DNA of 64,000 nt from Fusibacillus kribbianus (GTDB lineage: Bacteria > Bacillota > Clostridia > Lachnospirales > Lachnospiraceae). Under the pieces are notes generated by a model that was given only the letters and a program-made list of their open reading frames with translations, did no database searches and was not told where the DNA came from. Shown one piece after another: positions 1-15,699 of this stretch (position 1 is its first letter; each line of letters starts with the position of its first letter). The DNA is taken from positions 1 to 64,000 of the forward strand of contig NZ_JASGBQ010000011.1 in NCBI RefSeq assembly GCF_030053595.1, in the 5' to 3' direction. The position numbers and the translations under genes are program-made.

Positions 1-372
1 GGGACCTTCATTTCCTGACCACCCCAGGGTCCCCCGGGTGACCTTCACTTCCTGGCCCCCTCAGGGTCACCGGGTGACCTTCATATCCTTGACCGCCCTC
101 AGGGTCCCCCGGGGACCTTCACTTCCTGGCCGCTCCAGGGTCCCCCGGGGACCTTCACTCCATAGCCTCCTCAGGGTCCCCCGGGGACCTTCACTCCATA
201 GCCGCCTAGGGTCCCCCGGGGACCTTCATTTCCTGACCACCCCAGGGTCCCCCGGGTGACCTTCACTTCCTGGCCCCCTCAGGGTCACCGGGTGACCTTC
301 ATATCCTTGACCGCCCTCAGGGTCCCCCGGGGACCTTCACTCAATGACCACCTCCAGGGTCCCCCGGGGACC
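1..372 (+). repeat. Palindrome array A (left of parAB)
   Basis: Ten complete copies of a 15-bp odd palindrome and one right half at the window edge, so the array continues to the left. Copies start at 27, 64, 102, 138, 174, 209, 245, 282, 320 and 357, spaced 35-38 bp. Two arm types occur: GGTCCCC-N-GGGGACC and GGTCACC-N-GGTGACC. The copies at 27 and 245 have one arm of each type. Linkers are nearly constant (about TTCACTTCCTGGCCGCCCCA), so this is a tandem repeat and not a CRISPR. The first 121 bases recur almost unchanged from 219, giving a higher-order period of 218 bp. The palindromes suggest binding by a dimeric protein. The adjacent ParB is the obvious candidate, which is inference. Confidence 0.9.
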
Positions 373-381
373 CCAAAAATA

Positions 382-413
382 ATACCTCCAGAGGTTACAT
401 CTTCTGGAGGTAT
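382..413 (-). terminator. Terminator after parA-parB-xre operon
   Basis: An 11-bp perfect stem (ATACCTCCAGA / TCTGGAGGTAT) with a 10-nt loop. Read on the minus strand it is followed by a T-rich run (TATTATTTTTG), which fits factor-independent termination of the leftward xre operon just before array A. Confidence 0.7.
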
Positions 414-431
414 CTTAAAAATCTCATAGTT

Positions 432-469
432 ACATCCCAAAGCCCATCATCACTTTGGGATGTGTTTTT
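432..469 (+). terminator. Hairpin with plus-strand T tract
   Basis: An 11-bp perfect stem (ACATCCCAAAG / CTTTGGGATGT) followed by GTTTTTA on the plus strand. It would stop rightward transcription coming out of array A. A very similar stem (TAAATCCCAAAG) lies at 7944-7977. The remaining bases to 545 hold nothing recognisable. Confidence 0.6.
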
Positions 470-544
470 AGAAGGAGAGAAGGCTACACCTTCTCTGTTA
501 TGGCAATCCTATATTACGATTAATAATATAGGGAATAGGTAAAG

Positions 545-754
545 TTATTTAAACAACTCGTCAACCGTTATATTATAAAATTCTGCAATTTTATCCATAA
601 CTTCAAAAGACGGACAAACATGTTTTCCTGGTTCTTCTAGGTATCCATAGTAGCTACGCGCAATCTTGATACCATTTGCTACTGCCATTTTTGAATAACC
701 ATGTTCAGATCGTAAGCGATATAAATTTTGTTTAAAAATAGCTTCAGCGTTCAT
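545..754 (-). CDS. XRE-family helix-turn-helix regulator, 69 aa
   Basis: A 69-aa protein that is essentially one lambda-repressor-like HTH domain: residues 5-68 hold five predicted helices, with the HTH near YSKMAVANGIKIARSYYGYL and the typical C-terminal YNITVDELF helix. It starts at an ATG 6 nt after an AAAGGA ribosome site. It is the last gene of the parA-parB-xre operon, separated from parB by a 26-bp perfect palindrome. Likely a DNA-binding regulator of the partition operon or of the host element. No toxin partner is next to it, so an antitoxin role is unsupported. Family assignment is good, target unknown. Confidence 0.8.
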   Translation of the reverse strand: MNAEAIFKQNLYRLRSEHGYSKMAVANGIKIARSYYGYLEEPGKHVCPSFEVMDKIAEFYNITVDELFK

Positions 755-770
755 TTCTATTCCTTTCTAT

Positions 771-796
771 CTCCCGGAGGATATATCCTCCGGGAG
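771..796. promoter_or_regulatory. 26-bp perfect palindrome between parB and xre
   Basis: CTCCCGGAGGATA followed directly by its exact reverse complement, filling most of the parB-xre gap. There is no T tract on the minus strand, so it is not a classical terminator. It could be an mRNA processing or stability hairpin setting the parB:xre ratio, or an operator for the XRE protein. Confidence 0.6.
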
Positions 797-803
797 TAAA
801 TTG

Positions 804-2123
804 TTATTTATTGAAAAGAGTTTCAGGGGCGGGTAAAGCAGTCATGCCGGAAGCGGAATACCTCTTATAAGCTTTTTGCAATTTGTCAGTTGCGGCTTTC
901 CAATTTTCAATGGCTGTCTCATATTCGAGAGTCGCTTTAATGGTTTCCAAATTCTGTGCTTTTTCTTTTTCCGCGGCGTCCAACTCCTGACGAAGCTTCT
1001 CTTCGGTTTGAGCATGGGCCTTTTCCAAATCGTCCCGTTCCTTTTTCAGAGATGTAAGCTGTGCTTCATATTGTGCCTTTAATTTTTCAGCCTGAGCCTT
1101 TTCCATCTCTGTATGAGTGTCCTTAAGGATTTTCAGATCCTTTTCAAGATTGTCAATTACTGCCTGTTTTTCTTTAATTTCTTCCTCTTTATTTTTTCGG
1201 AGCTTTTCTAAAGCTTCCGTATTCTGAGCGGCAGTTATTTTCAAACTGTCCTGCAGTCGGGCAAGTTCCTGATCGGCTTTTTCTTTCTGCCGTTTCATAT
1301 TTTCCGCTTCTGCAGCTGAAACTGTCTTTCCAGCCTGTATCATTTCATAGATAGTCCGCTGTTCTTCTTCTGAAAGTTTGGAATAACTACTTCCTTCTTT
1401 CAAGGTGATATTATGCTTCTCGAATTCTTTTTTGAGTTCAGGAATCAATTTATCAATAGAACGATAACGCTTTATTTGTGATTCACCCAGCCCAGTTTCT
1501 TGTGCCAGCGTTTTGATGATATTGACCGGTTCATCCTGATAAATGATAGCATATAATTCTTCCAGTCTTTTCAATTTCTTCTGCTGTAAAACAGGATCTT
1601 TTTCCCGAATTTCGTCATTGGTGATAATCAGACGGATTTCACTTTCAGCTTCGGCCCTGCGTCTTTCTTCCGGTGACATTCCATCTTTGAGCGTCCGATT
1701 AATCTTACAAGGATACCCCCCTTCATATTCTTTGACATTCCGAAGATAATCCTTGTAATTACGGTCTTCCGGATCTCCATTATAATCTCTGTATTCTCCA
1801 ATGATCTTATCAAGGGCCGTAGTACGGCGTTCTCCGGCTTCCAGCATATACAAATCATTGTCGATATCGTAAATTACAACAAGTGGTTGCTGTAACCCAA
1901 AATGCAGAATGGAATCAGCCAGTTTATCAATATCGTCAATGGGATAATCATTCTTTGGATTTGTTACGATCCTGTTTCTAGGTATCTTAATAACCTTGAA
2001 TTCGTTTCGTTCCGGCTCCTTTTTTTCAAGCTTCTGTGCAAGGGCTTCCACACGATTTTCCGCAGGCATTCCTCCATTCATATTATCAGCCGGTCTCTGA
2101 AAATTAAATTTCTGTCGTCCCAT
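804..2123 (-). CDS. parB: ParB-like partition protein with long coiled coil
   Basis: A 439-aa ParB/Spo0J-type protein. Residues about 43-135 are the ParB N-terminal domain with the AGERRTTALD box (GERR near residue 97), which in this family forms the CTP-binding and clamp region. A helix-turn-helix follows at about 200-235 (ETGLGESQIKRYRSIDKL). Residues about 260-420 are a long Lys/Glu-rich coiled coil, much longer than the C-terminal dimer domain of chromosomal ParB (usually 280-300 aa total). It starts at an ATG with a GGAGG site lying in the end of parA, 3 nt downstream, so the two are translationally coupled. Expected role: bind a centromere and work with ParA in segregation. The flanking palindrome arrays are the likely binding sites (inference). 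Confidence 0.88.
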   Translation of the reverse strand: MGRQKFNFQRPADNMNGGMPAENRVEALAQKLEKKEPERNEFKVIKIPRNRIVTNPKNDYPIDDIDKLADSILHFGLQQPLVVIYDIDNDLYMLEAGERRTTALDKIIGEYRDYNGDPEDRNYKDYLRNVKEYEGGYPCKINRTLKDGMSPEERRRAEAESEIRLIITNDEIREKDPVLQQKKLKRLEELYAIIYQDEPVNIIKTLAQETGLGESQIKRYRSIDKLIPELKKEFEKHNITLKEGSSYSKLSEEEQRTIYEMIQAGKTVSAAEAENMKRQKEKADQELARLQDSLKITAAQNTEALEKLRKNKEEEIKEKQAVIDNLEKDLKILKDTHTEMEKAQAEKLKAQYEAQLTSLKKERDDLEKAHAQTEEKLRQELDAAEKEKAQNLETIKATLEYETAIENWKAATDKLQKAYKRYSASGMTALPAPETLFNK

Positions 2124-2126
2124 AAT

Positions 2127-2984
2127 CTATTCCTCCATTCCAATCGATTTCTTTAAGCACAAGGTATCCGTTTCGTTTAAAATATCCATTTCTAACAGCA
2201 GTTTGGCATAATCAAAAACACAACGGGTAGAAGGGCAATATTGCAGAATTGGAAGATTCTGTGATATCGCTTCGCTTGCCTTAACGTCTTTTGCGATATA
2301 GGTTCTGAAAAACATATCCCCCAGACTCTGACACAGCTCATCATATATAGCCCGAAAAATAACTGTATTGGATTCAACCCGTGTAATGTATACTCCTTTA
2401 ACCGTGACTGGAATATCAAAATCCTCTTTGATTCGTAAAACATTGTCTAAGGTTTCTTCAATTCCCTTCCGGCTGTACGATTCTGCATTAGCTGGACAAA
2501 TGATAAAATCACTTGCATAAAGACTGTTGGTTGTCAGTATATCGTCTGCCGGTGCATTGTCAATCAGTATATAATCATAATCTTCACGAACCGTCTGTAA
2601 TGCTCGCTTTAATATCACATTGTTATTAGCGGATGTATTAAAGAGAATGTTATATGGAGTCTGTTTGTGGCGTTTGCTTGCCGGAATCAGATCAATCCCT
2701 GCAATAGAACTGGGATAGATCACAGACATAACATCTTCTTTGGTGCGATAACGGCCTTTCATTAATTCTGCGATATTGGGTTCTTTTGGTGCTTCCATCC
2801 CGCTTATCACTTCGGAAGTATCAATTACCAAATGACCGAGGCTCATGGAACTATTGGCCTGACTATCAAAGTCAACAACTAAGACCTTTTTTCCGAGATA
2901 AGCAAGTAACTGACTGATGATCAGGACACTGGTGGTTTTTCCGGTTCCACCTTTGTTGTTTAACACAGAAATTGTAATTGCCAT
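2127..2984 (-). CDS. parA: ParA-family partition ATPase
   Basis: A 285-aa ParA/Soj ATPase. The deviant Walker A motif KGGTGKTT is at residues 11-18, followed by VLVVDFDSQANSS (A' motif) and YDYILIDNAPA (Walker B region). There is no N-terminal HTH, so this is a type Ib-like or Soj-like ParA. I chose the ATG at 2984 because a GAAGGAGC site lies 8 nt upstream; an upstream start at 3029 would add 15 residues without a ribosome site. First gene of parA-parB-xre. ATP-dependent, ParB-stimulated DNA positioning is the known family function. The tandem 17-bp repeats upstream (3031-3064) are candidate autoregulatory sites. Confidence 0.93.
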   Translation of the reverse strand: MAITISVLNNKGGTGKTTSVLIISQLLAYLGKKVLVVDFDSQANSSMSLGHLVIDTSEVISGMEAPKEPNIAELMKGRYRTKEDVMSVIYPSSIAGIDLIPASKRHKQTPYNILFNTSANNNVILKRALQTVREDYDYILIDNAPADDILTTNSLYASDFIICPANAESYSRKGIEETLDNVLRIKEDFDIPVTVKGVYITRVESNTVIFRAIYDELCQSLGDMFFRTYIAKDVKASEAISQNLPILQYCPSTRCVFDYAKLLLEMDILNETDTLCLKKSIGMEE

Positions 2985-3030
2985 AATAATATGCTCCTTC
3001 TTTTCGTTATTGCTACCCTTATTACCCATA

Positions 3031-3093
3031 AATGTTCTACAATTAAGAATGTTCTACGATTAAGAACATATTATAAAAAACATGAAATGTCAA
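3031..3093 (-). promoter_or_regulatory. parA promoter region with 17-bp tandem repeat
   Basis: Two head-to-tail 17-bp repeats at 3031-3047 and 3048-3064 differ at one base (AATGTTCTAC[A/G]ATTAAG). Each contains imperfect inverted GTTCT/AGAAC arms. On the minus strand TTGACA (3093-3088) and TATAAT (3075-3070) are present but only 12 bp apart, too close for one standard promoter, so the exact promoter is unresolved. The repeats lie between it and parA, as expected for an operator. Confidence 0.5.
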
Positions 3094-3111
3094 TAAGATT
3101 ATTGTAAAACA

Positions 3112-3144
3112 TATCCGGTAATGTTTGTTCTTGAGTTGGTGGGG
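3112..3144 (+). repeat. 33-bp direct repeat, copy 1
   Basis: Identical over 33 bp to 4091-4123 (begins TATCCGGTAATGTTTGTTC, ends GTTGGTGGGG). The two copies, 979 bp apart in the same orientation, bracket the foldback element and array B. Downstream sequences also resemble each other loosely (TTTTYCACCC). Confidence 0.85.
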
Positions 3145-3156
3145 GAAGGTTTTTCA

Positions 3157-3428
3157 CCCGGTATCGAACGTATTCATGTATGGTTCACCTCCTATCTTTT
3201 CATATCCGTATAAAGTCTGCCTGTCGTCGTATGGGGTTTTGATAGCTGTTAATGATGCGAAATGAACAGGTTCTGCAAGGGGTGAAAACGGTACCGGAAC
3301 GAAGTGAGGATAAGGAGTGTCCCCTTGCTGGTTCTGGAAATGAAGCTATAATGACAGCGTCAAAGCCCAGGCGACAGGCAGCATGATAAAAAGAAGGAAG
3401 CGATAACAGGAATACGTTCGATACCGGG
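3157..3428. other. 272-bp foldback element with 19-bp perfect ends
   Basis: CCCGGTATCGAACGTATTC at 3157-3175 is the exact reverse complement of 3410-3428. Pairing continues inward: CTGCCTGTCG with CGACAGGCAG, GGGnTTTGA...GCTGT with ACAGCnTCAAAnCCC, and GCAAGGGG (about 3277-3284) with CCCCTTGC (about 3320-3327). The whole element can fold into one long imperfect rod. It contains no credible gene. It could be a structured RNA, a MITE-like foldback element without clear target duplications, or a replication or transfer structure. Confidence 0.7.
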
Positions 3429-3446
3429 CCGCCGGAGGCATAAAAG

Positions 3447-3466
3447 AAACCGGCTCAAGCCGGTTT
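3447..3466 (+). terminator. Short GC hairpin before array B
   Basis: AAACCGGCT / AGCCGGTTT form a 9-bp stem with a minimal loop, followed by TTCC on the plus strand and by TCTTTTAT on the minus strand. It may act as a weak bidirectional terminator insulating array B. Confidence 0.45.
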
Positions 3467-3476
3467 TCCGCTTTCG

Positions 3477-4042
3477 GGGTTCCCCCGGGGACCTTCACTC
3501 CATAGCCGCCCCAGGGTCCCCCGGGGACCTTCACTTCCTGGCCGCTCCAGGGTCCCCCGGGGACCTTCACTCCATAGCCACCCAGGGTCCCCCGGGGACC
3601 TTCACTTCCTGACCGCCTCCAGGGTCACCGGGGGACCTTCACTTCCTGACCTCCTCCAGGGTCACCGGGTGACCTTCACTTTCTGGCCGCCCTCAGGGTC
3701 ACCGGGTGACCTTCACTTCCTTGACCGCCCTCAGGGTCACCGGGTGACCTTCACTTCCTGGCCGCCCCCAGGGTCACCGGGTGACCTTCATATCCTTGAC
3801 CGCCCTCAGGGTCACCGGGTGACCTTCACTTCCTGGCCCCCTCAGGGTCACCGGGTGACCTTCATATCCTTGACCGCCCTCAGGGTCACCGGGTGACCTC
3901 CACCTCCTGGCCGCCCTCAGGGTCACCGGGTGACCTTCACTTCCTGGCCGCCCTCAGGGTCACCGGGGACCTTCACTCCATAGCCACCCAGGGTCCCCCG
4001 GGGACCTTCACTCCGTAGCCGCCCTCGGGTCCCCTGGGGACC
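3477..4042 (+). repeat. Palindrome array B, 16 copies
   Basis: Sixteen copies start at 3477, 3514, 3550, 3585, 3622, 3659, 3696, 3734, 3771, 3809, 3845, 3883, 3920, 3957, 3991 and 4027, about 37 bp apart and in the same orientation as array A. The outer copies are the GGTCCCC/GGGGACC type; the eight from 3659 to 3920 are the GGTCACC/GGTGACC type. Copies 3622 and 3957, at the block borders, have mixed arms. Copy 3477 carries an extra T. The array lies upstream of parA, so array A, the operon and array B form a symmetric unit. Reading frames inside the array simply repeat short Gly/Pro-rich peptides and are not genes. Confidence 0.92.
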
Positions 4043-4090
4043 TTCATTTCCTGGCCACTCCCAGATATCATCAAGGACTACTTTATAAAT

Positions 4091-4123
4091 TATCCGGTAA
4101 TGTTTGTTCTTGAGTTGGTGGGG
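4091..4123 (+). repeat. 33-bp direct repeat, copy 2
   Basis: Exact second copy of 3112-3144, placed 48 bp after the end of array B. Confidence 0.85.
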
Positions 4124-4166
4124 TTCAAATTAAAACAGTGGGTTTTCCACCCCCTGTACCCCCGGA

Positions 4167-4320
4167 CAAGCGTGCGACGCTTGACCCGGCTCTTCGCCAG
4201 AGCAAGGCGAAAGCCGGTCCCATTGGAACCGACTTCGCTAATAAGCTTACTGTCATGCCTATGTCAAGCCCTGCCCGTCCTTCGGACAGCGTACTGTGGC
4301 TTGACATAGTTTTGGTTTTT
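4167..4320 (+). other. Cluster of three hairpins ending in a T tract
   Basis: Three consecutive stems: CAAGCGT/ACGCTTG at 4167-4183; CCGGCTCTTCGCC/GGCGAAAGCCGG at 4186-4217; and CTATGTCAAGCC/GGCTTGACATAG at 4259-4309, the last with an inner GTCC-ttc-GGAC hairpin and followed by TTTTGGTTTTT. It could be a structured RNA with its own terminator, or a replication or transfer origin structure. No coding region with a ribosome site is present. Confidence 0.45.
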
Positions 4321-4410
4321 GCAATATAAATAGTAGTTATCTATAGGTGTTAATTCGACACGTTAAACATATTGTAATGTTATCGTTTTTATGATATACT
4401 TATAATTAAG

Positions 4411-4442
4411 AAATGGGACAAAATATTTATATTGTCCCATTT
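4411..4442. terminator. Hairpin in AT-rich gap 4321-4648
   Basis: A perfect 11-bp stem, AAATGGGACAA / TTGTCCCATTT, with TTATATT after it on the plus strand. The rest of 4321-4648 is AT-rich and I see no gene, repeat or promoter in it. Confidence 0.45.
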
Positions 4443-4648
4443 TATATTAATAAAACCAACAGTAAACATCTCATACATTCTTCTTATAATGTCCCCCCCT
4501 TCAATAAAAACGAGCATTATAAGTACCCGAGACGTTCCTCCTCGAGTATTGAGTATTGAATGATTATTATGTTATAGCATTATATCAACCGATAAATAGA
4601 TAGAAGATTCTTAGACGAACAAAAAAACATACAGCTAGATACACATAT

Positions 4649-4690
4649 TCAAACACCGATATTCTATTCTTTTAGAATATCGGTGTTTGA
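4649..4690. terminator. Strong bidirectional terminator
   Basis: An 18-bp perfect stem with a 6-nt T-rich loop, about 48 bp beyond the stop of the leftward membrane protein gene. It is the likely end of the BlaI-M56-secreted-membrane gene group. Confidence 0.7.
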
Positions 4691-4738
4691 AATAATCTTT
4701 CATGATCCAATCTATGTCTCATACCTATTGAATACTTC

Positions 4739-5128
4739 CTACTTTTTCAATCTAATGTGTCGGAACATTAATAAATCAATAATAGAATAGATTGGAACAA
4801 TCAATAATTCTTTAGCATATAATACAAATGATCCGTTTATCTGTAAATACACCATGTATACAATCGGAACCATTATTCTACACAAAATATTGCTGTATAA
4901 AACTTGATGTGATTTGTTTTCCTTTAAACATCGTTCTATTCCCAGAGAAACAGAAAAAAGGGTATAAAAGATAACGATATATATATATGGAATCATCACT
5001 TTTAAAATCACTGAATAGTAAATTGATCCAATATATAAAGCCCATTGCTTTATATCATGATAGAATATCATCATAGACGCGCAAAACAAATCACATAATA
5101 TGACTATTATTCTTTTCTTATCTTTCAT
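4739..5128 (-). CDS. Small multi-pass membrane protein, 129 aa
   Basis: A hydrophobic 129-aa protein with about four membrane segments (roughly residues 6-24, 30-62 as two, 80-96 and 103-120) and Lys/Arg-rich ends (MKDKKR..., ...RHIRLKK). I do not recognise a family. Its ATG overlaps the stop of the secreted protein gene in an ATGA, so the two are translationally coupled and probably act together. A strong hairpin follows. The pair is encoded beyond a BlaI/M56 regulatory pair, and could be its output, an immunity/export pair, or an envelope-stress module; none of these is shown. Confidence 0.7.
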   Translation of the reverse strand: MKDKKRIIVILCDLFCASMMIFYHDIKQWALYIGSIYYSVILKVMIPYIYIVIFYTLFSVSLGIERCLKENKSHQVLYSNILCRIMVPIVYMVYLQINGSFVLYAKELLIVPIYSIIDLLMFRHIRLKK

Positions 5129-5832
5129 TGCAGATTATTTACATACTCATTGGATAACTTGCTACTCCAAGAGCTTCCTCCTCTCGTGAAAGACATTTCC
5201 AAATAACTTCCGATCATTGCTCCCGGTGATTGAATATTAACTTTTGTCCAAGATGAAGGAGCTGTAATAGTATATGTTGTATTACTTCCAAACACTGTAT
5301 TACTACTCTTCACTTGTCCCGACTGTGCTAGTGAGGCACAGCTTAAGACAGATTTTATACTATTTACAACAATTGTCGGCTGTCCTCTGTCATAGCTGTA
5401 AGTAGCCTTATTTGCAGTGATAAATGTAATAGTTCCACTCACTTCTTTTGTAAAATATAATGTACTGCTCATAAGTACCCAACCAGATGTATCATAAGCA
5501 CTCCCTACCAATGATTGATTAACTCCAGCTTTAGCATCAGAAACAGCTTTCCATGCTGAATATGCTTCACTGTCCAAAGTTTTTACTTTTGTTACTTCTA
5601 CAACAAATTCATCATCACTGTTTAATAAATCTGATTGCTTAGTAAACAGAAATTCCCCGTTTCCCTTTTCCTCGCAAACAGCATTTAATAGACTACTTCT
5701 ATTAAATTTTGCTTCATAAGGAATTTCTTCAGACGTATTGACGGATGATTCAGCAGCATGTGCAAATGCAGTACAAGAAAAAACACACATAATGCAAATC
5801 GCTAAGAATAACCCAGATAATCGTTTTAACAT
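5125..5832 (-). CDS. Secreted protein of unknown function, 235 aa
   Basis: The protein begins with a classical signal peptide (MLKRLSGLFLAICIMCVF..., cleavage near AFAHAAE, residues 22-28). The mature part is Ser/Thr-rich and beta-prone, with three cysteines and no known catalytic motif. The ATG follows an AAAGGAG site. A 195-bp gap separates it from the upstream M56 gene; it holds a TATAAT (minus strand, within GTGTATAATAATG) and a hairpin, so it may have its own promoter. It is coupled by an ATGA overlap to the membrane protein downstream. Function unknown. Confidence 0.75.
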   Translation of the reverse strand: MLKRLSGLFLAICIMCVFSCTAFAHAAESSVNTSEEIPYEAKFNRSSLLNAVCEEKGNGEFLFTKQSDLLNSDDEFVVEVTKVKTLDSEAYSAWKAVSDAKAGVNQSLVGSAYDTSGWVLMSSTLYFTKEVSGTITFITANKATYSYDRGQPTIVVNSIKSVLSCASLAQSGQVKSSNTVFGSNTTYTITAPSSWTKVNIQSPGAMIGSYLEMSFTRGGSSWSSKLSNEYVNNLQ

Positions 5833-5997
5833 ATAATTCTCCTTTCCTCTTTTAAAGAATGCACAAATTTAAATAATTAAATTGTTACGACATTATTATA
5901 CACGGATTATTTTACATAAGCCTCTTCATTGGACTCACCTCATTTCCAAATAATCTTTAATTCATTATTCAATTTAATTTATAATTGAATCGCCTTT

Positions 5998-6026
5998 TAA
6001 TTAAAGGGGACGCGCCCCTTTAATTA
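5998..6026 (-). promoter_or_regulatory. Hairpin directly after the M56 gene
   Basis: TAATTAAAGGGG / CCCCTTTAATTA, a perfect 12-bp stem with a 5-nt loop, abuts the stop codon of the M56 gene. There is no T run on the minus strand beyond TTAAAAGG, so it may be a weak terminator or a 3'-end protecting hairpin. Confidence 0.5.
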
Positions 6027-7406
6027 TTACGGTTTTTTCAAAACAAATGATACCGAGATTGTTTGATTTGACTGATTCTCAATATATACTCTATGACCTC
6101 CCGATTTTCTAATTGTAAAAGTATGGTCTATCTTTCCCGTAGAAGATACCGCTCTTCTCACACCATCCGGTTCCATGAGTCCCACTCTGGTTAAACAATC
6201 ACTCGGTTCAATACTTGCCATTACAAGTATTTCATCACCTATACAAGGTGTAAATTCTATCGTTTTTTTCAACGTATTCACTGGAATCGTCCACGTATAA
6301 CTGCTGGTTCCTCTGGTCACAATGAGTGGCATTTCTATTTCTGTAATCTTACTTTCCGTTTCGGCTGGAATGATTTCCTCAATCAATACCTCTGGTTCCT
6401 CTAATTCTTCCTCAATCACCACTTCTGTCTGTTCTTTAAGAAAATCATATCCCTGCAATACTCCGTCACTAGCTGCATAAGAAGTAACTGTAACTGTTCC
6501 TACAAAGAGAACCGATAATAAAAGTACCGTACTTTTTTTTAACTCTTTCATATACTGATATCCTTTCAACTTCAGCACCCTCCTTTTTACACTATTCATA
6601 TTTTCAAATAATGCCGACATTGTCAGTCCCATCCTGTTCCTCTTTTCCTTCCCTGAAAAATTAGCAATGGCTTTAAAGTATTGTTGATAAGAAAAAGGAG
6701 CATTTTCTTTTTTGCACAAATCTCTGTCACAATAAATCTCATTCCACTCCACAATATCGTTTGTAAGCAGATACACGATCGGATTAAACCAATGAATTCG
6801 TTTTAACCAGACGAGAAAATACAACCAGATCTGATCCCGGTGTTTAACATGCATTAATTCATGCCCGATTATAATCTCTGTATTTTGTGAAATATCTATG
6901 TTTTCAGGAAGAAGAATGACTGGTTTTCTTATTCCGCTGACCTGAGGTATCGTACAAATGATATTTTTATATATTTCTACTCTGCGTTTTATACCATATT
7001 GTTCCTGCAGCATATTTTTTACATCAACCAGTTCCTGTTCCGGCAAAATATTGTGCTTTTTTATATACTTCAAATACTGTTTATTTTTGAAATGCCAGGT
7101 ACACTGGCATAAAAAACCTAACAGCCAGATAAAAAACACTATTTTTAACACTCTATATGTGAAGGGAGAAATCCCAAAAATATCATTCACGCCTCCCTGT
7201 CCATTATAAGATGCACATTTAAAGCGTAAAAAAACAATAGGCATTAACCAGAAGATTACAACTAACTTTGCCGAAAAGACCAGCCAGTTATATTTTTTAT
7301 ACCGTTCTAAAAATAGCTCCAGTACCTTCCACAAGCCATAGGCGACACTTCCGGTTATGGAAGTCAGTAAGATGCAGAAAAACCATTCACTGCTGCTCAG
7401 ACTCAT
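6027..7406 (-). CDS. M56 family (BlaR1/MecR1-like) membrane metallopeptidase
   Basis: A 459-aa protein with N-terminal membrane helices (about 5-30, 40-62, 85-105), then a cytoplasmic zinc protease domain with HELMH at residues 182-186 and the following NDIVEWNEIYCD segment typical of M56, then a further helix (about 289-310). In BlaR1/MecR1 the C-terminus is a penicillin-binding sensor. Here it is a short acidic linker (EEELEEPEVLIEEI) and a roughly 100-residue beta-rich domain without the SxxK motif, so it probably does not sense beta-lactams. The start overlaps blaI by 20 bp. Known family role: cleave the partner BlaI-type repressor when a signal is received. Confidence 0.88.
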   Translation of the reverse strand: MSLSSSEWFFCILLTSITGSVAYGLWKVLELFLERYKKYNWLVFSAKLVVIFWLMPIVFLRFKCASYNGQGGVNDIFGISPFTYRVLKIVFFIWLLGFLCQCTWHFKNKQYLKYIKKHNILPEQELVDVKNMLQEQYGIKRRVEIYKNIICTIPQVSGIRKPVILLPENIDISQNTEIIIGHELMHVKHRDQIWLYFLVWLKRIHWFNPIVYLLTNDIVEWNEIYCDRDLCKKENAPFSYQQYFKAIANFSGKEKRNRMGLTMSALFENMNSVKRRVLKLKGYQYMKELKKSTVLLLSVLFVGTVTVTSYAASDGVLQGYDFLKEQTEVVIEEELEEPEVLIEEIIPAETESKITEIEMPLIVTRGTSSYTWTIPVNTLKKTIEFTPCIGDEILVMASIEPSDCLTRVGLMEPDGVRRAVSSTGKIDHTFTIRKSGGHRVYIENQSNQTISVSFVLKKP

Positions 7407-7770
7407 CCAGAATTTCCTCTATCTCTCTTATCTCTTCGTCGGTTAACTGCTCGTTTTCACGCAAATTGGAAGCCAGACAGAGAAGCGACTTCTTCCCCCA
7501 AAAATCCGCCATATATCCCATAATTGATTCCAGATATGCTTCTTCACTAATTGCAGGTGTATAATCATACGCTCTTCCTGCCTGTTTCATATGAAGAAAA
7601 CCACGGCGCACTAAAGAACGGATATATGTCGACACCGTCTGATACTGCCACTTTTTGTTGTATACATCCTTTGTTTGTGCATAAATATCGGCAAGCTGCA
7701 TAGGACGATCCGCATCCCAGATAATCTTCATGATTGTCAATTCCGTAATTGGTAACTCTTCAATTTTCAT
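7387..7770 (-). CDS. BlaI/MecI/CopY-family repressor
   Basis: A 127-aa winged-helix repressor: ITELTIMKIIWDADRPMQLADIY, then YQTVSTYIRSLVRRGFL as the recognition part, and a C-terminal helical dimer region. I start at the ATG at 7770 because GAGGAG lies 8 nt upstream; a start 15 codons earlier has no such site. It overlaps the M56 gene by 20 bp, the standard regulator-protease arrangement. It would repress its own operon and possibly the secreted/membrane pair downstream. I could not find the usual TACAnnTGTA dyad upstream, so its operator may differ. Confidence 0.9.
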   Translation of the reverse strand: MKIEELPITELTIMKIIWDADRPMQLADIYAQTKDVYNKKWQYQTVSTYIRSLVRRGFLHMKQAGRAYDYTPAISEEAYLESIMGYMADFWGKKSLLCLASNLRENEQLTDEEIREIEEILDESEQQ

Positions 7771-7818
7771 TGTTCTCTCCTCAAAACGCGTTTCAAGATT
7801 AAATTTAATTTTCAATTA

Positions 7819-7848
7819 TATACTACCATATTGTTCTCATTTTATCAA
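7819..7848 (-). promoter_or_regulatory. Possible blaI promoter
   Basis: On the minus strand TTGATA (7848-7843) and TAGTAT (7824-7819) are 18 bp apart, directly followed by TATAAT-like sequence and then the blaI leader. The region is AT-rich, so chance matches are likely. Confidence 0.35.
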
Positions 7849-7943
7849 GTATTATATTAATTATTTTCTATATTTTTAGAACTTATTTGTAACAATATAT
7901 ATTTTTTATTTTTTTCTCATCCCCCATTATTTTTTTCTAAAAG

Positions 7944-7977
7944 TAAATCCCAAAGCCATACTAGACTTTGGGATTTA
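7944..7977 (-). terminator. Terminator of the recombinase-HipA-Fic operon
   Basis: A 12-bp perfect stem (TAAATCCCAAAG / CTTTGGGATTTA) about 77 bp after the last gene of the operon. On the minus strand it is followed by CTTTTAGAAAAAA. It closely resembles the hairpin at 432-462. Confidence 0.55.
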
Positions 7978-8053
7978 TTAATCCATAGTATTATAATTCC
8001 GTTCACCCTTTATCCTCTTGCTATTAAATACAAAGTTTCTTATGCCTCACATA

Positions 8054-8281
8054 TCATCCTCCGCAATACCTGTCACACAGCTTTTCAAATTGTTCCTGCG
8101 TAATTGATTCATCGGGAACCCAATGCTTTGCATAACATTCCAACACCTCACAGGCGTCAAAATACCCATAGTCTTCCGTTTCATCATAATATTCCAACAT
8201 ATCCACCTTTTCCTGAATCGGCTTCGGAAGCGGAAAATCAATTTTTACGGAATCATTTACCCATCGATATTTTTTCTCCAT
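8054..8281 (-). CDS. Small acidic protein downstream of fic, 75 aa
   Basis: A 75-aa acidic protein (MEKKYRWVND..., many Asp/Glu and Tyr, three cysteines near the C-terminus). I start at the ATG at 8281, which has an AAGGAG site; an upstream extension overlaps fic and lacks one. It is the last gene of the recombinase-HipA-Fic operon, 38 bp after fic. No family is recognised. Its size, acidity and position would suit an antitoxin or adaptor for Fic or the kinase, but no sequence evidence proves this. Confidence 0.65.
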   Translation of the reverse strand: MEKKYRWVNDSVKIDFPLPKPIQEKVDMLEYYDETEDYGYFDACEVLECYAKHWVPDESITQEQFEKLCDRYCGG

Positions 8282-8319
8282 TTCTGTCTCCTTATTACTT
8301 CCATGTCTGTCTGCAGTTA

Positions 8320-9333
8320 TCACCGTTCCGGTTCCCATTCATCCTCTTCATACCGTGGCTCATCCGGCTTGTAAGAATTTTTCAGACCTTCTTCCCTCTC
8401 CTGATCACGCAATTCTTCAATAACTCGTTCTGCATATTCACCAGCTTTTTCAGGAAATCCATTGCACTTCCATGTTTCTACATCCTTAAGAGTGCAGTCT
8501 GTACCACAGATTTCCCGTAGCTTTCTCATATTTTTAATCAAAGAATCCGTTGCCCGATAACCACATTTTTCAATATCTGCAATCACCAACGGCTTTTCAA
8601 GATAACGGCTGTGTGTCTTTATTGCTTCAGACTTTAAAAAGCCAATCATCTGATCCAGTTTTAATTCTTCGTCAAATTCTTCTAAAGCTGCATAATATTT
8701 CTTTCGATCCTCTTCGTAAATAATCACCGGAGGATGCCCCTGAAGCAAAAAGTAATAATTCATCAAAGTTCTTCCTACTCTCCCATTTCCATCTGCAAAT
8801 GGATGTATATTTTCAAACTTTGCATGAAGATAAGCACCCCCAATAACCGCTTTTTCAGGGGGCACGGCTTCCTGAATATCCTCTATCAGTTCTTCCATTT
8901 CCTCAGACACATATTCCGGTGGACAACCGATCTCACGAATACCCGTTACATAATCATGCAGCTTATATTCTCCGGGACGTTCCCCTTGATTCCACCTGTG
9001 TTCATCATAGCACCCTTTCATCAGGATCGCATGCAGCTGCTTAATAAACTCTTCGTCTATAGCTCTTCGCTCTTCATAGGATTCCAGAATAAATCTATGC
9101 GCTTCTTTCTGATTCTGAATCTCAAACAGAGTTCTTATGTCACCTGTATAATCAATGATTTTCCCATTTTCAAAAATATCTCTGGTATCATGATAAGTGA
9201 CATTCTCATTTTCAATTTTTCCGGAATGATAGGCAAATAATACGCGAAAGCTGTCCAGTTTTCCTGCCAGATCATCTGCCGTCTGCAGATTCTCCTTTTT
9301 CCATTCATTCAGTAATCGTTCATAAGGACTCAT
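8320..9333 (-). CDS. Fic-domain protein, class II (N-terminal inhibitory helix)
   Basis: A 337-aa Fic/DOC-family protein. The active motif HPFADGNGRVGR is at residues 177-188 with the catalytic His and the full nucleotide loop. The N-terminal SGKIEN (residues 37-42) fits the inhibitory [S/T]xxxE[G/N] motif, so this is a self-inhibited class II Fic enzyme that normally AMPylates a target protein from ATP. A helical C-terminal region follows and ends in the acidic tail EEDEWEPER. The ATG has a GGGAG site 6 nt upstream. It follows the HipA-like kinase gene by 31 bp. The kinase ends in the same tail, encoded by the same 22 bases, which suggests a shared partner or a recombination event. Confidence 0.9.
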   Translation of the reverse strand: MSPYERLLNEWKKENLQTADDLAGKLDSFRVLFAYHSGKIENENVTYHDTRDIFENGKIIDYTGDIRTLFEIQNQKEAHRFILESYEERRAIDEEFIKQLHAILMKGCYDEHRWNQGERPGEYKLHDYVTGIREIGCPPEYVSEEMEELIEDIQEAVPPEKAVIGGAYLHAKFENIHPFADGNGRVGRTLMNYYFLLQGHPPVIIYEEDRKKYYAALEEFDEELKLDQMIGFLKSEAIKTHSRYLEKPLVIADIEKCGYRATDSLIKNMRKLREICGTDCTLKDVETWKCNGFPEKAGEYAERVIEELRDQEREEGLKNSYKPDEPRYEEDEWEPER

Positions 9334-9364
9334 GATATTCTCCCTTTACTTTAATCATATCCTG

Positions 9365-10213
9365 TTACAATTCCGGTTCCCATTCATCCTCTCTCTGCAG
9401 AAGAGTATCTTTTGGATTATGCTCCCACTCATCTTCTAAACACTCTTCTCTCAGGTGAAAATTCGGGATAATATCTCTATTTGCTTCGAGCTGGTAATCC
9501 AAAACCCGCAACGCTCTCGAGTCTGGTTCCTGGCTTAAACATGTTTCTAACCGTCCGTAATCAATCTGCAGGCCGATCCCGGCCTCAAGAGCCTGGCGTC
9601 TTAAATTCGCGCAAAAGGGTTGTCCGCAAACAAGCGCTATATTCTCTTCAATGGTTTCCTCATTGAATCTTCCCCAACTGCTCAATAACGCCGCCCCATT
9701 ATCGAAAACAGGGGCCGGACGGCAGATCCCGCTTTCATTATCAATAACGACACCCAGATTATTAAAATGTCTGTCAATGTTTAAAGTAAGCATATCCAAA
9801 GATAAGACCTGAGAAAGATATTCAGAGCAATCGATACCTACTGTATCCCTCACAAATTGTTTAACAAACTGGATCCTCTCTGCAGGCTCCGGAATAACCC
9901 GTACCCGGTCCAACAGATGCCCTCCTTCATATACTTCATGAAGCCTCTCAAAGCTGATAAACGACTCTGTTTTGCTCAAAAATGTTTTAGACCGGCAGCC
10001 GGATTTCCCATTAATTTTGCATGGCTCATAAACAACATAATCTTTGATATTGGAGCATTTTAAAACAAGAGAAACAAGATATTCGGCCAGACCTTCATAT
10101 CCTTCTGAATTTGCCTTATACCAATAGCCGTCATCATAATACTTCGGCTGTGTTCCCTTGGAGCTCCCCTGTACCATTACCAGAGCTTTTGTATCTAACG
10201 TGTATTCTCTCAT
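9365..10213 (-). CDS. HipA-type Ser/Thr kinase, HipT-like
   Basis: A 282-aa HipA-fold kinase lacking the N-terminal HipA subdomain. Motifs in order: a serine-containing Gly-rich loop GSSKGTQPK (about residues 17-25), the ATP-binding lysine in YWYKA, the catalytic loop NIDRHFNNLGV and the metal-binding FDNGAALL. I start at the ATG at 10213, which overlaps the previous stop in an ATGA. Serines in the Gly-rich loop recall HipT of split HipBST systems, where they are autophosphorylated; the analogy is inference. The C-terminus carries EDEWEHN and ends EDEWEPEL, matching the Fic tail. A helix-turn-helix HipB partner is not seen in the operon. Confidence 0.82.
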   Translation of the reverse strand: MREYTLDTKALVMVQGSSKGTQPKYYDDGYWYKANSEGYEGLAEYLVSLVLKCSNIKDYVVYEPCKINGKSGCRSKTFLSKTESFISFERLHEVYEGGHLLDRVRVIPEPAERIQFVKQFVRDTVGIDCSEYLSQVLSLDMLTLNIDRHFNNLGVVIDNESGICRPAPVFDNGAALLSSWGRFNEETIEENIALVCGQPFCANLRRQALEAGIGLQIDYGRLETCLSQEPDSRALRVLDYQLEANRDIIPNFHLREECLEDEWEHNPKDTLLQREDEWEPEL

Positions 10214-10545
10214 CTTATTGCCACATCCTTCCACTGTAAAGTTTCTCCCGGGAACCGAATCCATATAAAATCGTCATAGGTTACACCATGAGTCTTTTTT
10301 ACCCACTCCCATGGATTGTTTGAAGCCATACCAGCCGATTCCAGTATTTGTTTCAGATCTGCTCTCTCATTTTCATAGCATCGACTTTTTAAAAAATCAT
10401 ATACTCTAAAAATATCTTCCCTATTCCCACAGAAAGGCTGCTTATAAGAATCCGGCACAAACTTCCTAATCAATACTTTTCTTTTATCATCTGAAACGCT
10501 GACATGAGCAACCGGCTCATCCAGGTGCATAACTGTAAAGTTCAT
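10210..10545 (-). CDS. Small HipS-like (HipA N-subdomain) partner, 111 aa
   Basis: A 111-aa protein with an N-terminal beta-rich part (MNFTVMHLDEPVAHVSVSDD...) that resembles the first subdomain of HipA, and a helical C-terminal part rich in Trp and charge. It overlaps both neighbours by ATGA junctions (10542-10545 and 10210-10213), so recombinase, this protein and the kinase are made from one coupled message. In HipBST systems a small HipS protein encoded before the kinase acts as antitoxin; position and size fit that role. Similarity is by eye only. Confidence 0.55.
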   Translation of the reverse strand: MNFTVMHLDEPVAHVSVSDDKRKVLIRKFVPDSYKQPFCGNREDIFRVYDFLKSRCYENERADLKQILESAGMASNNPWEWVKKTHGVTYDDFIWIRFPGETLQWKDVAIR

Positions 10546-11192
10546 ATGCCCTCCTCTATTTCAGCTTCATACTGTTTCTTATACCGATAAAATGTTGACT
10601 GCGACAATCCCAATTCTCTCATCAGCGCAAATGGCTGGATCTCTTTTTCCTGTACCCTTTTATATTCTTCTTTGAATTTTTCAAAATCCATGGCCTTCGG
10701 CCGTCCATAATCGGCCCATTCGCCCCTGTCCTTCTTCTTTTGTATACCCTCGCGCTGCCTTTTTTCCCGTTTTTCAAATTCTGCCTGTGCTATCGTTGCA
10801 TAAATCTCAATGAGCATATGATTGATCGTATCAAGAACCATGGCTGCCATATTATCCTGCAATCCTGTTAAGTCTTGCAAAGTAGTCGGTATTTCGAGAA
10901 TCATAACTCTGATTCCACGATCTGCATAATATTGCAGCTCATTCAGTGTTTCCTTCTTATTTCTCCCCAGCCGATCAACTTCGGTCACAATAAGCGTATC
11001 TCCGGGGCGAAGGATATCATTTCTCAAAACAATATAGCGGGGACGATCAAAATTCATGCCCGATTGCTGATCCGTAAAAATTTTTTCCAGATGAATCCCA
11101 CGGTTTCTGCAGAACTGCTCGATCTCATCAATTCCCCGGTCCAAATGCTGTTTTTTTGTACTTGTCCGATGATATCCATAATAATATCCCAT
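10542..11192 (-). CDS. Serine recombinase (resolvase/invertase family)
   Basis: A 216-aa small serine recombinase. The N-terminal catalytic domain has GYHRTSTKKQ with the nucleophilic Ser near residue 11, then DRLGRNKKETLNEL, the E-helix with FEKREKRQREGI and the GRPKA hinge. The C-terminus has a helix-turn-helix (FALMRELGLSQSTFYRYKK). The length matches Tn3-type resolvases and Hin-type invertases. First gene of a five-gene operon. A promoter and three dyad sites resembling a res locus lie directly upstream (11225-11349), as in autoregulated resolvases. It could resolve multimers of the element or invert a segment. Confidence 0.92.
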   Translation of the reverse strand: MGYYYGYHRTSTKKQHLDRGIDEIEQFCRNRGIHLEKIFTDQQSGMNFDRPRYIVLRNDILRPGDTLIVTEVDRLGRNKKETLNELQYYADRGIRVMILEIPTTLQDLTGLQDNMAAMVLDTINHMLIEIYATIAQAEFEKREKRQREGIQKKKDRGEWADYGRPKAMDFEKFKEEYKRVQEKEIQPFALMRELGLSQSTFYRYKKQYEAEIEEGI

Positions 11193-11224
11193 TTTACGAT
11201 ACCTCTTACCTATTCTCTTATCTC

Positions 11225-11349
11225 ATTTTATCATAAACCTCCCAAAATGTCATTTAACTTTTTGGGAATTGCCAAAAGTAATCATACATACTTTTTGGCA
11301 GTTCTTTTTCTTCTTAAATTTATATTCCCAAATTGTATACTTTTTGACA
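11225..11349 (-). promoter_or_regulatory. Three-part res-like site and recombinase promoter
   Basis: Three imperfect dyads with the shared arm pattern T[C/G]CCAAA...TTTTTG[G/A][G/C]A: 11240-11267 (28 bp), 11270-11300 (31 bp) and 11325-11349 (25 bp). Gaps are 2 bp and 24 bp. This close pair plus distant third resembles sites III-II and I of Tn3/gamma-delta res. On the minus strand ATGACA (11253-11248), a 17-bp spacer and TAAAAT (11230-11225) make a promoter overlapping the gene-proximal dyad, so the recombinase would repress itself. Confidence 0.65.
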
Positions 11350-11477
11350 CTTAAAAACAGCGAGATAGAAGGACAGATCTTAAATTCTATAAAAACATTG
11401 TATCAGAATACACCTCATTTTCTCATTTCAACCATATATAAGATGATAATAAATTTGATTAATTCTCCGCCACCCCG

Positions 11478-11541
11478 AAAAAAAAATTGTAAAAAAACGT
11501 AAAAAAGTGATTTTGGGGCGCCAATATCAACCATATATATT
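11478..11541 (+). promoter_or_regulatory. Phased A tracts and promoter of the 111-aa gene
   Basis: Runs of 9, 7 and 6 adenines (11478-11486, 11491-11497, 11501-11506) are about one helical turn apart, so the DNA should be bent. Directly after them TTGGGG (11513-11518), 17 bp and TATATT (11536-11541) form a plausible plus-strand promoter. The rest of 11350-11477 is AT-rich with nothing recognisable. Confidence 0.5.
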
Positions 11542-11567
11542 ATGGAAAAAAACGGAGGGATATGCGT

Positions 11568-11615
11568 ATGTATAAGTCACGGTCACCACCAGCACATACT
11601 ATATACAATAATTAA
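11568..11615 (+). CDS. Possible 15-codon leader peptide
   Basis: A short frame reads MYKSRSPPAHTIYNN and has a GGAGGG site 8 nt upstream of the ATG. It lies in the roughly 100-nt leader of the 111-aa gene. No attenuator hairpin is evident between the two, so it may be chance. Confidence 0.25.
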   Translation: MYKSRSPPAHTIYNN

Positions 11616-11645
11616 TAATAACAATAATACTACAGGAGGATAACA

Positions 11646-11981
11646 ATGGCTATATACGATTATAAACGGTGCAGTTGGTTACAGATTGGTTGCAAAGGAG
11701 AGGTCTGGATCCATGGCTTTGGCGATCCAGGCACGTACTGCCAGTTGGCAGTACACATGGAAGATGATGGCTCTGTGGATACATTATTGGCAACGGATTA
11801 CACCCGCTGGTTGTATGGTCACTATGCTGTTGTGACATTTACGGTCCCTGACCCTGGCGATCCGGTCCGCAATATGCGGCTGTACAACATGGTGGCCTGC
11901 TACCGGCTGGACAATGTAACCTATACATATTGCGCCAATAATGGCATGTATGTGCCGCGTCGGCAGCACCTGTTGCCGTAG
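11646..11981 (+). CDS. Hypothetical protein beside array C, 111 aa
   Basis: A 111-aa protein with a very good ribosome site (AGGAGG, 7 nt before the ATG). It is aromatic-rich, beta-prone and has five cysteines (near residues 9, 16, 32, 85 and 95), with no signal peptide or membrane segment. I do not recognise a family. It is the only convincing plus-strand gene of the accessory segment. Its base composition is more GC-rich than the adjacent operon. The inverted palindrome array C begins 38 bp after its stop, so it may belong with the array or carry it as a 3' element. Confidence 0.7.
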   Translation: MAIYDYKRCSWLQIGCKGEVWIHGFGDPGTYCQLAVHMEDDGSVDTLLATDYTRWLYGHYAVVTFTVPDPGDPVRNMRLYNMVACYRLDNVTYTYCANNGMYVPRRQHLLP

Positions 11982-12018
11982 TATTATCTCGGGATCCCTG
12001 GGGCAGTCAGGGAGTGGA

Positions 12019-12142
12019 GGTCTCCGGTGGACCATGAGGGTGGTCATGGAGTGGAGGTCACCCGGTGACCCTGGGGCGCCATGGAGTGAAGGTCACCCGG
12101 TGACCTTGAGGGTGATCATGGAATGAAGGTCCCCGGGGGACC
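12019..12142 (-). repeat. Palindrome array C, inverted and short
   Basis: Four copies of the array A/B palindrome in the opposite orientation: 12019-12033 (degenerate), 12056-12070 and 12091-12105 (perfect GGTCACC-C-GGTGACC) and 12128-12142 (GGTCCCC-G-GGGGACC). The linkers match the reverse complement of the array A/B linker. A decayed fifth copy may lie near 11990. Spacing is 35-37 bp. Confidence 0.9.
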
Positions 12143-12238
12143 CTCATTATAGCCATAAAACGGAATTTCGCATTTAGGCTTGTTTTTTTAGCTGATTCTG
12201 AGCTTTGGTATCTTCCGATGAGAATATCTAAGGAGCCG

Positions 12239-12400
12239 TTTTGATGTGCTATGCTGGATCGTGACGATGGGAAGCTTCTGTTGGCTTGTCTTTTCCCTTC
12301 ATCGTCGCGAAGATGTGATGAGCACATCAAAATGTGAAATGCAAGGCCGAGCGCAGTGAGTGCAGTTAAGCCTTGCATTTTACATAGGTGACGATGTTTT
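12239..12400 (+). other. Nested hairpin region, possible structured RNA
   Basis: TTTTGATGTGCT (12239-12250) pairs exactly with 12321-12332 and encloses a second stem (GACGATG with CATCGTC, 12263-12306). Next, GTGAAATGCAAGGC (12334-12347) pairs with 12370-12383. A run of seven T follows at about 12394-12400. No gene is present. It could be a roughly 160-nt RNA, the terminator region of the 111-aa gene, or an origin structure. Bases 12401-12706 are AT-rich and I see nothing else there. Confidence 0.4.
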
Positions 12401-12715
12401 TTTCATAATCTCCCTATGCCATCTGCAAGTTTATCTTTTGATCTGCAAAAAGGATCTGATATTTTGCAGTAGAAAATATCAATATACATAAGAGTGAGTA
12501 TTTATATAGTAGTGATATATACGGCTCTTATAATACCCAAAAAAGCCCACAGTTACAATGCTTCCAGGTTATTTTGCGCGGCAAAAATCCGGGATGTTTT
12601 TTTGATTTTCTTCCTTAAAATGGAATATATTAACATTCTATGTCAATAAAGTTGAATATTTCATATTCTGACTGTGCATAAAATTTGAATGGATTATCTG
12701 CATCAAAACAAAAAA

Positions 12716-12743
12716 AGTGACAGCCTCCTTTTTGGCCATCACT
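12716..12743 (-). terminator. Terminator of the rep-like operon
   Basis: On the minus strand AGTGATGGCC pairs with GGCTGTCACT through ten pairs including two G-T wobbles, then TTTTTTTG. It lies about 100 bp after the winged-helix gene. A second weaker stem is at 12789-12818. Confidence 0.7.
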
Positions 12744-12840
12744 ACTTGATAATTCTTTTAATTTTTAAAGTTCTTGCATACGCAAAATAGACTTAGTGTA
12801 TTGATATATACTAAATCTGTTTTCATCTTATTTTGTTTTC

Positions 12841-13749: not shown

Positions 13750-13790
13750 GCTTTCCACCTCCTCTCCGAGTCAAATCTTTTGGATTTATG

Positions 13791-14182: not shown

Positions 14183-14203
14183 CGGCCTCTCCTTTCTTTA
14201 CAC

Positions 14204-14245
14204 CAAAAAAAGCATCTGCGGGAATCCAGTGTTCCAACAAATGCT
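14204..14245 (-). terminator. Attenuator-like terminator in the rep leader
   Basis: On the minus strand AGCAT...GGAA pairs with TTCC...ATGCT (14211-14245) and is directly followed by seven T (14210-14204). It stands only 22 bp before the first gene of the rep-like operon, so it would stop transcription before the gene: an attenuator position. Confidence 0.6.
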
Positions 14246-14289
14246 TTACCTTTTTACCATACGGGAATTAAATTTTGCTGTGATTATCC

Positions 14290-14318: not shown

Positions 14319-14324
14319 GAAAGT

Positions 14325-14726: not shown

Positions 14727-14766
14727 TCATAGATTTTATGATTTTAAAAAGGTAAAAATTCTTTGA

Positions 14767-15699
14767 TTACATCATCTGCTTTGCAACTTCCTCAGCGAAG
14801 TTCTCGCTCTTCTTCTCAAGGCCTTCACCGGTCTCGAAACGAACGAACTTCTTAACGGAAATCTTTGCGCCGTTGGCCTTTGCAACCTCATCGATGTACT
14901 TGGCTACGGTCTGCTTTCCGTCCTCAGCCTTTACATATACCTGATCTACCAGGCAGATCTCCTTCAGCTCTTTATTGATACGTCCGTTGATCATACCCTC
15001 GATCACCTTGGCAGGCTTCTGGGATTCCTTGGGATCGTTCTGGATCTGAGCCATAAGGATCTCTTTCTCATGTGCAATATACTCTTCGCTGATCTCGCTT
15101 CTGTCGATATACTTGGGGCTCAGAGCTGCGATCTGCATAGCTACGTTCTTGCCCATCTCTTTTACTGCATCATTCACAACATCAGACTCAATGTCAACCA
15201 GAACACCGATCTTGCCGCCCATGTGAATGTACTCAACGATGCAGCCGTTATCCTCAACCAGCTTCTCAAAACGTCTGATCTTCAGATTCTCACCGATCAC
15301 AGCGATCTTCTCAACCAGAGCTTCCTTCACAGTCTTGGAAGGATCTGCATTCCATGCCTCTTCCATGAAAGCGTCCATATCTGCTGCATCAGATGCAACT
15401 GCCTGAGCTGCAACCTCTGCAACGTATGCCTGGAAGGTCTCGTTCTTTGCAACAAAGTCTGTCTCGGAATTTACTTCTACAACAGCAGCGCAGTTTCCGC
15501 TGATCACGGTCTTTACAAGACCCTCAGCAGCGATTCTGCTTGCCTTCTTCTCAGCCTTGGCCTGTCCGTTCTTTCTCAGGAACTCAACTGCTGCATCCAT
15601 ATCACCGTCATTTGCTGCAAGAGCCTTCTTGCAGTCCATCATGCCGGCGCCGGTCATTTCTCTTAACTCTTTTACCATTGCTGCTGTAATTGCTGCCAT
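14767..15699 (-). CDS. tsf: Translation elongation factor Ts
   Basis: A 310-aa EF-Ts, the guanine-nucleotide exchange factor for EF-Tu. The N-terminal UBA-like helix bundle reads AAMVKELREMTGAGMMDCKKAL, followed by the core with the conserved NSETDFVAKNE signature (about residues 77-87) and a C-terminal coiled-coil part, full length for Firmicutes. I start at the ATG at 15699, about 12 nt after an AAAGGA site; upstream extensions are not conserved-looking. It follows rpsB by 98 bp in the usual rpsB-tsf order. pyrH and frr, which often come next, are absent here: the accessory segment begins instead. Confidence 0.97.
   Translation of the reverse strand: MAAITAAMVKELREMTGAGMMDCKKALAANDGDMDAAVEFLRKNGQAKAEKKASRIAAEGLVKTVISGNCAAVVEVNSETDFVAKNETFQAYVAEVAAQAVASDAADMDAFMEEAWNADPSKTVKEALVEKIAVIGENLKIRRFEKLVEDNGCIVEYIHMGGKIGVLVDIESDVVNDAVKEMGKNVAMQIAALSPKYIDRSEISEEYIAHEKEILMAQIQNDPKESQKPAKVIEGMINGRINKELKEICLVDQVYVKAEDGKQTVAKYIDEVAKANGAKISVKKFVRFETGEGLEKKSENFAEEVAKQMM

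Follow-up and report, generated by a model that had tools for sequence, protein, structure and literature searches.

A ParABS-type locus between two palindrome arrays on an integrated conjugative element of Fusibacillus kribbianus

The first 64,000 nucleotides of one contig of this genome (the stretch analysed here, called the window) open in an array of short palindromes, continue with the genes xre, parB and parA, and then enter a second array of the same palindrome. The carrier of this locus is an integrated conjugative element (ICE), not a plasmid. The palindrome arrays are most likely the centromere of this ICE, a reading based on the gene families, the ends of the element, the confinement of the sites to it, and the different iterated palindromes found at related parAB loci. 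We think it probable that the whole is an ICE-borne ParABS partition locus with a large two-sided centromere; binding of the sites, clamp behaviour, partition and autoregulation are functions that we infer. What is new is that the locus sits on an ICE, that the leader-plus-array is duplicated so as to flank the operon, and that single sites lie upstream of element genes. In the titles and abstract openings of the part of the open-access literature that was searched, we found no description of a comparable ParABS on a Lachnospiraceae ICE. The usual view is that ICEs depend on the chromosome for their inheritance. A large ParABS centromere on an ICE would argue for a substantial plasmid-like phase.

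Two palindrome arrays around parA, parB and xre

The genome is assembled in 48 contigs (2.9 Mb), and the window opens contig C3. The features to which we refer are the following.

Array A, part within the window: 1..372, plus strand, 10 palindrome copies (29-372) and a half site at the contig edge
xre: 545..754, minus strand, 69-aa Cro/C1-type helix-turn-helix protein (HTH_19, E 8e-9), downstream of parB
parB: 804..2123, minus strand, 439 aa, with a ParB N-terminal domain (CTPase-type), a GERR motif, a central region and a long C-terminal part
parA: 2127..2984, minus strand, 285-aa Walker-type ATPase (Pfam AAA_31, E 5.5e-40), adjoining parB
Leader: 3109..3478, plus strand, about 370 bp, non-coding, with a long imperfect hairpin, preceding array B
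Array B: 3479..4042, plus strand, 16 palindrome copies, upstream of parA
33-bp repeat: 4091..4123, plus strand, identical to 3112-3144, the two bracketing the leader and array B
Dispersed cluster: 12019..12142, minus strand, four palindromes in the orientation opposite to that of arrays A and B
25-bp direct repeat: 14765..14789, no strand, right end of the ICE, at the 3' end of tsf (gene identified by eye)
Integrase: C44:105474-106682, Phage_integrase E 7e-31, with a match to the Tn916 DNA-binding domain below the Pfam cut-off

The repeat word of both arrays is the 15-bp palindrome GGTCMCC-N-GGKGACC, spaced at 35-38 bp in the window. The arrays have the same orientation, with xre-parB-parA between them. 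Two copies in array A, at 29 and 247, carry two mismatches each, and the copy at 3957 in array B is degenerate (three mismatches). Allowing up to two mismatches, the window holds 29 matches (10 in array A, 15 in array B and four at 12019-12142), against a mean of 0.59 and a maximum of 4 in 100 shuffles of the window. These counts bear out an earlier note on this DNA, which had described arrays of at least 10 and of 16 copies on either side of the three genes, and the gene calls made there also hold. Lying beyond that note are the location of the locus on an ICE, the placement of both arrays in copies of one leader-plus-array unit, and the further dispersed sites.

Contig C44 terminates inside a like array, with 15 further copies at C44:128328-128852 (the array runs to 128878). 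Array A therefore very probably crosses a contig break and has at least 25 copies. This is a lower bound, and since both contigs end in repeats, the adjacency of C3 and C44 is one that we infer. A second copy of the leader, 94% identical, precedes array A at C44:127958-128330, and the two leader-plus-array copies can be aligned along 931 bp (87.5%), so that the operon sits between two direct copies of one unit. The 33-bp repeat, too, has a near-identical counterpart at C44:127952-127993. The leader folds at -159.6 kcal/mol (z -7.9; z -8.7 on the opposite strand) into a hairpin of about 290 nt. It has no Rfam match at gathering score (window 1-15000 and the stretch L006 were scanned), and besides its own two copies only short matches of 24-42 bp were found, in 3 of 397 genomes. 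The leader could be a single-strand origin or a structured RNA.

We considered compensatory variation as evidence, since, among the 47 sites that depart from the palindrome by no more than one mismatch, 45 are symmetric at positions 5 and 11. This was discounted: the two variants travel with their spacers, and duplication of two ancestral units explains the pattern.

The ParB assignment combines several matches. The window ParB scores 25.7 bits against Pfam ParB_N, slightly under the cut-off of 26.3, its family profile matches Noc/Spo0J structures (best E 4.3e-11), and the protein matches the ParB-like PHROG 4715 (E 1.9e-22). Residues G97, E98 and R100 of the GERR motif are invariant in all nine rows of the alignment, and CTP binding is predicted. 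The Pfam ParB helix-turn-helix domain gave no match in this protein at E 0.1; the region is conserved in the alignment. The long C-terminal part looks coiled-coil-like by eye. The earlier note had called the coiled coil unusually long, but this long part recurs among relatives: six of the eight aligned measure 397-490 aa, the remaining two 370 and 337 aa.

The following mechanism may be proposed. ParB would be a clamp protein of the CTP-dependent kind. A ParB dimer most likely binds the palindrome; loading would take place at the numerous tandem sites that flank the operon, and spreading would follow. ParA would distribute the excised circular element on the nucleoid, and partition would keep the element from loss during the extrachromosomal phase that follows excision or transfer. 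From array B, which lies upstream of parA, ParB probably autoregulates the operon as well.

The carrier element and the confinement of the palindrome to it

The ICE is split over C44 and C3, whose junction is putative. The assembled sequence amounts to at least 38.4 kb, to which the missing stretch of array A must be added. The ends of the element are given by the 25-bp repeat at tsf and by a matching copy at C44:105310-105334. On C44 the element also encodes proteins with Pfam matches to ArdC, a C39 peptidase-like domain, a VirB4-like ATPase (AAA_10), TrbL and a type IV secretion coupling protein, together with a small tyrosine recombinase, a MobL relaxase and a protein with a weak ribbon-helix-helix match. 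A plasmid was considered as the carrier and dropped: the window continues into tsf and rpsB (identified by eye), and the 25-bp repeat ends the element at tsf. In a search for the empty site in same-genus genomes, tsf was present in four of five, and the left flank had no match in these short loci.

Several features of such elements may be recorded in passing. A small tyrosine recombinase (about 200 aa), distinct from the terminal integrase, lies near a MobL relaxase in two related elements (L006:12238-12828 and L031:17178-17786). A 1011-aa protein with six SpaA domain matches is encoded at C44:107869-110904 (L005:12870-15905), and its gene holds tandem repeats offset by about 264 bp and 72-84% identical. 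Between array B and the right end, the cargo at 5125-9333 includes M56/BlaR-like and repressor-like genes (by eye) and a Fic-domain protein.

The palindrome is nearly confined to this element. Of the 48 matches that the genome contains when one mismatch is allowed, 47 are on the ICE, from C44:111684 to the contig end and from C3:65 to C3:12142, and the remaining one is on contig C12. Five of 397 family genomes contain the exact word: it is present 43 times in this one and once in each of the other four; among 11 genomes of the genus it is found only in this one. The canonical parS, by comparison, was absent from the window, as the earlier note had stated, and from the element: its three copies in the genome (at most one mismatch) all lie on contig C9, where they adjoin another ParA homologue.

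Arrays of this word apart from parAB, which the earlier note had named as a finding that would speak against a centromere, are rare. Palindrome pairs separated by 15-45 bp were found in four stretches of a collection of 84,980 genomes, which may omit the window's own genome, and in no viral contigs. Three unrelated high-GC genomes account for the four stretches, a single metagenome-assembled genome (MAG) of 64% GC contributing two, and parAB was recognised by eye in none of the parts fetched. This MAG, a member of the Bacillota, has degenerate arrays at two loci (L040 and L041), in which a TGGTCCCC-N-GGGGACCA-like palindrome is spaced at 32 bp.

These distributions bear on whether the palindromes are selfish repeats of the REP/BIME kind, or repeats forming mRNA hairpins, that lie near parAB by chance. 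Their GC-richness, tandem arrangement and position mostly outside long ORFs would fit such repeats, as would the similar arrays in the 64% GC MAG with no parAB in view. However, they are not dispersed over the host genome, with only 1 of 48 matches outside the element; the Y1 transposase matches of the genome, candidates for an associated RAYT transposase (one full-length on C38, three partial on C36, C4 and C23), are absent from C3 and C44; and different palindromes recur at related parAB loci. We consider this origin very improbable. The preferred centromere reading has good, if indirect, support: the sites are confined to the element, and iterated palindromes of other sequence stand at parAB in four related lineages.

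Palindromes at related parAB loci

At E 1e-10, 7 of 397 family genomes have a match to the window ParB, and at E 1e-25 the ParB profile finds 7 of 391 genomes of the class, both counts including the window's own genome. Peptide scans confirmed no relative of the window ParB in genome_contigs, gave no match in phage records, and confirmed no relative of the G119 ParB in viral_contigs. We examined 14 relatives for palindromes: the family loci G119, G178, G008, G336, G076 and G394, the plasmids NC_012780 and NZ_CP067350, and six class-level loci (G688, G633, G639, G689, G752 and G452, the last only 4 kb long). Further ParB matches outside this examination are NZ_CP085937, three Paraclostridium sordellii plasmids, NZ_CP117407, NZ_CP037841 and NC_014390.

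The strongest evidence that the arrays may be a centromere is that 6 of these 14 relatives, from four lineages besides the window, have their own iterated palindromes at the parAB locus, all differing from that of the window. The words of the four lineages are CCGGAAC-NN-GTTCCGG, TGGGAAGTACTTCCCA, TTGAACT-N-AGTTCAA and TGAAGCGCTTCA. If one mismatch to a 12-base core is allowed, copies number 31 in G119, 8 in G336, 4 in G008, 4 in NC_012780 and 3 in G076; G178 has 3 copies, exact over 16 bp. Shuffles of the six loci (20 each) gave maxima of 2-3. We count G008, G336 and NC_012780 as one lineage, since they have TTGAACT-N-AGTTCAA and much of their gene neighbourhood in common; identity between the G336 ParB and the one encoded by the Lachnospira eligens megaplasmid is 71%. 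In these three loci and in G076 the palindromes lie mostly just upstream of parA, like array B (6 of 8 copies in G336). That several relatives lie beside different words is as expected if protein and word evolve together. G119 and G178, whose ParA proteins have the highest identity to that of the window among those aligned (41 and 42%), also have MobL relaxases at their loci and are thus related mobile elements. The exact G119 word, CCGGAAC-NN-GTTCCGG, occurs in 29 of 396 genomes: G119 has it 12 times, the 28 others once or twice each.

The pattern is not uniform. Eight of the 14 relatives (G394, the Clostridioides plasmid pESS10701c and the six class-level loci) have no iterated palindrome at parAB in this test; in G688 the palindrome TGTTCC-NNN-GGAACA is present three times, though at a distance of 3-5 kb from the par genes. 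A control scan of 16 stretches, which include five distant parB loci (L052-L056, at most the first 15 kb) and are thus not all free of par genes, gave a maximum of 1-3 palindrome copies in 14; the exceptions, L039 (8) and L041 (7), had been fetched for matching the palindrome pattern. Since control L007 also reached 3, the relatives with three copies are weak cases with no safe margin. Three further details count against a centromere: the G119 array directly follows a helix-turn-helix gene that is possibly a replication initiator, two of the three copies in G178 lie inside coding sequence, and the unrelated MAG has arrays of a similar GC-rich palindrome with no parAB in view.

The G119 arrangement is also what favours reading the arrays as iterons, to which a Rep protein would bind at an origin of replication. 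In the element itself, however, no initiator was recognised among 20 proteins scanned with Pfam (window 12841-13758 has no assignment). In G076 the palindromes are upstream of parA, some 6 kb away from the Rep_3 gene (L035:4074-5369), and three of the four sites in NC_012780 lie between a thioesterase gene and parA. Iterons thus seem an improbable explanation.

Binding by the small XRE protein instead of ParB, with the arrays as its operators or decoy sites, is in our judgement unlikely as well. The xre gene is the one adjoining array A, and XRE proteins often bind palindromes of about this size; arrays of 16 and at least 25 copies, on the other hand, are unusual for an operator, and no XRE gene was recognised right after parB in G008, G336 or NC_012780 (by eye among ORFs of at least 60 aa, and from the annotation of NC_012780). 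The five different palindromes that five lineages (this element, G119, G178, the L. eligens type and G076) have at related ParB loci form a natural data set on how ParB changes its word, and are ready candidates for binding assays.

Single sites and comparison with known systems

Sites outside the arrays suggest an addition to the centromere role. Three exact single sites, at C44:111684, 116086 and 116519, lie 31, 57 and 16 nt upstream of an ATG, each ATG being preceded by a purine-rich ribosome site (by eye). They resemble the operators of RK2 KorB, a CTPase clamp of the ParB type that acts from its operators to repress promoters at a distance (PMC11790492), and on this thin evidence they hint at KorB-like regulation. 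ParB might then also repress element genes from single sites at gene starts and so link transfer genes with maintenance, which would add to the centromere and not replace it. We regard this dual role as possible, if doubtful: the exact single sites number only three and the promoters there are putative, a one-mismatch site at C44:112949 precedes only a 31-codon frame, and the other dispersed clusters (C44:124888, C44:127081 and window 12019) are not obviously at gene starts.

A broader and quite speculative reading would make one ParB, with more than 40 palindromic sites in two large arrays and as single sites at gene starts, the basis of a centromere that doubles as a silencing centre. ParB clamps at the arrays would segregate the excised circle while ParB at single sites held down element genes, coupling maintenance to transfer, and the word would be exchanged wholesale together with ParB across related elements.

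Among known systems, the srpMRC locus of SXT/R391 ICEs is of the ParM type, unlike a ParA/ParB system with palindrome arrays. Those ICEs resemble the present element in having a partition system of their own (PMC4489591). With Soj/Spo0J-parS the locus shares a ParA ATPase and the ParB N-terminal domain, whereas the canonical 16-bp parS is missing from the element. RK2 is not known to have arrays of this size. Its KorB-OB system is otherwise similar in pairing a ParB-type CTPase with palindromic operator sites near promoters (PMC11790492), the CTPase being predicted and the operators and promoters putative in our case. The Lachnospira eligens megaplasmid (NC_012780, EUBELI_RS11910/11915) has a ParA and a ParB each 29% identical to those of the window and an iterated palindrome with three of four copies upstream of parA. 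It differs in its word (TTGAACT-N-AGTTCAA), in having four copies and no long tandem arrays, and in being a 627-kb plasmid record.

The closest match in plan is sopABC (type Ia) of F. Its sopC consists of twelve 43-bp tandem repeats with ten 16-bp inverted repeats, so that tandem repeats of about 40 bp holding 15-16-bp palindromes lie beside parAB in both systems (PMC6238139). The window ParA, however, lacks the N-terminal part of SopA, the regulatory domain of type Ia (the SopA model matches only from its position 108, with 51 bits against a cut-off of 725), and the window ParB has no match to the F family in the libraries used. The sequence of the sopC site also differs from the window palindrome. 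The earlier note had proposed a new type of centromere. The centromere in that proposal is well supported by indirect evidence, from confinement and from the relatives' palindromes; its novelty is upheld only in part, because the array architecture is a known design, that of F sopC. Two differences from F sopABC set the present locus apart: its arrays flank the operon on both sides, and its carrier is an ICE.
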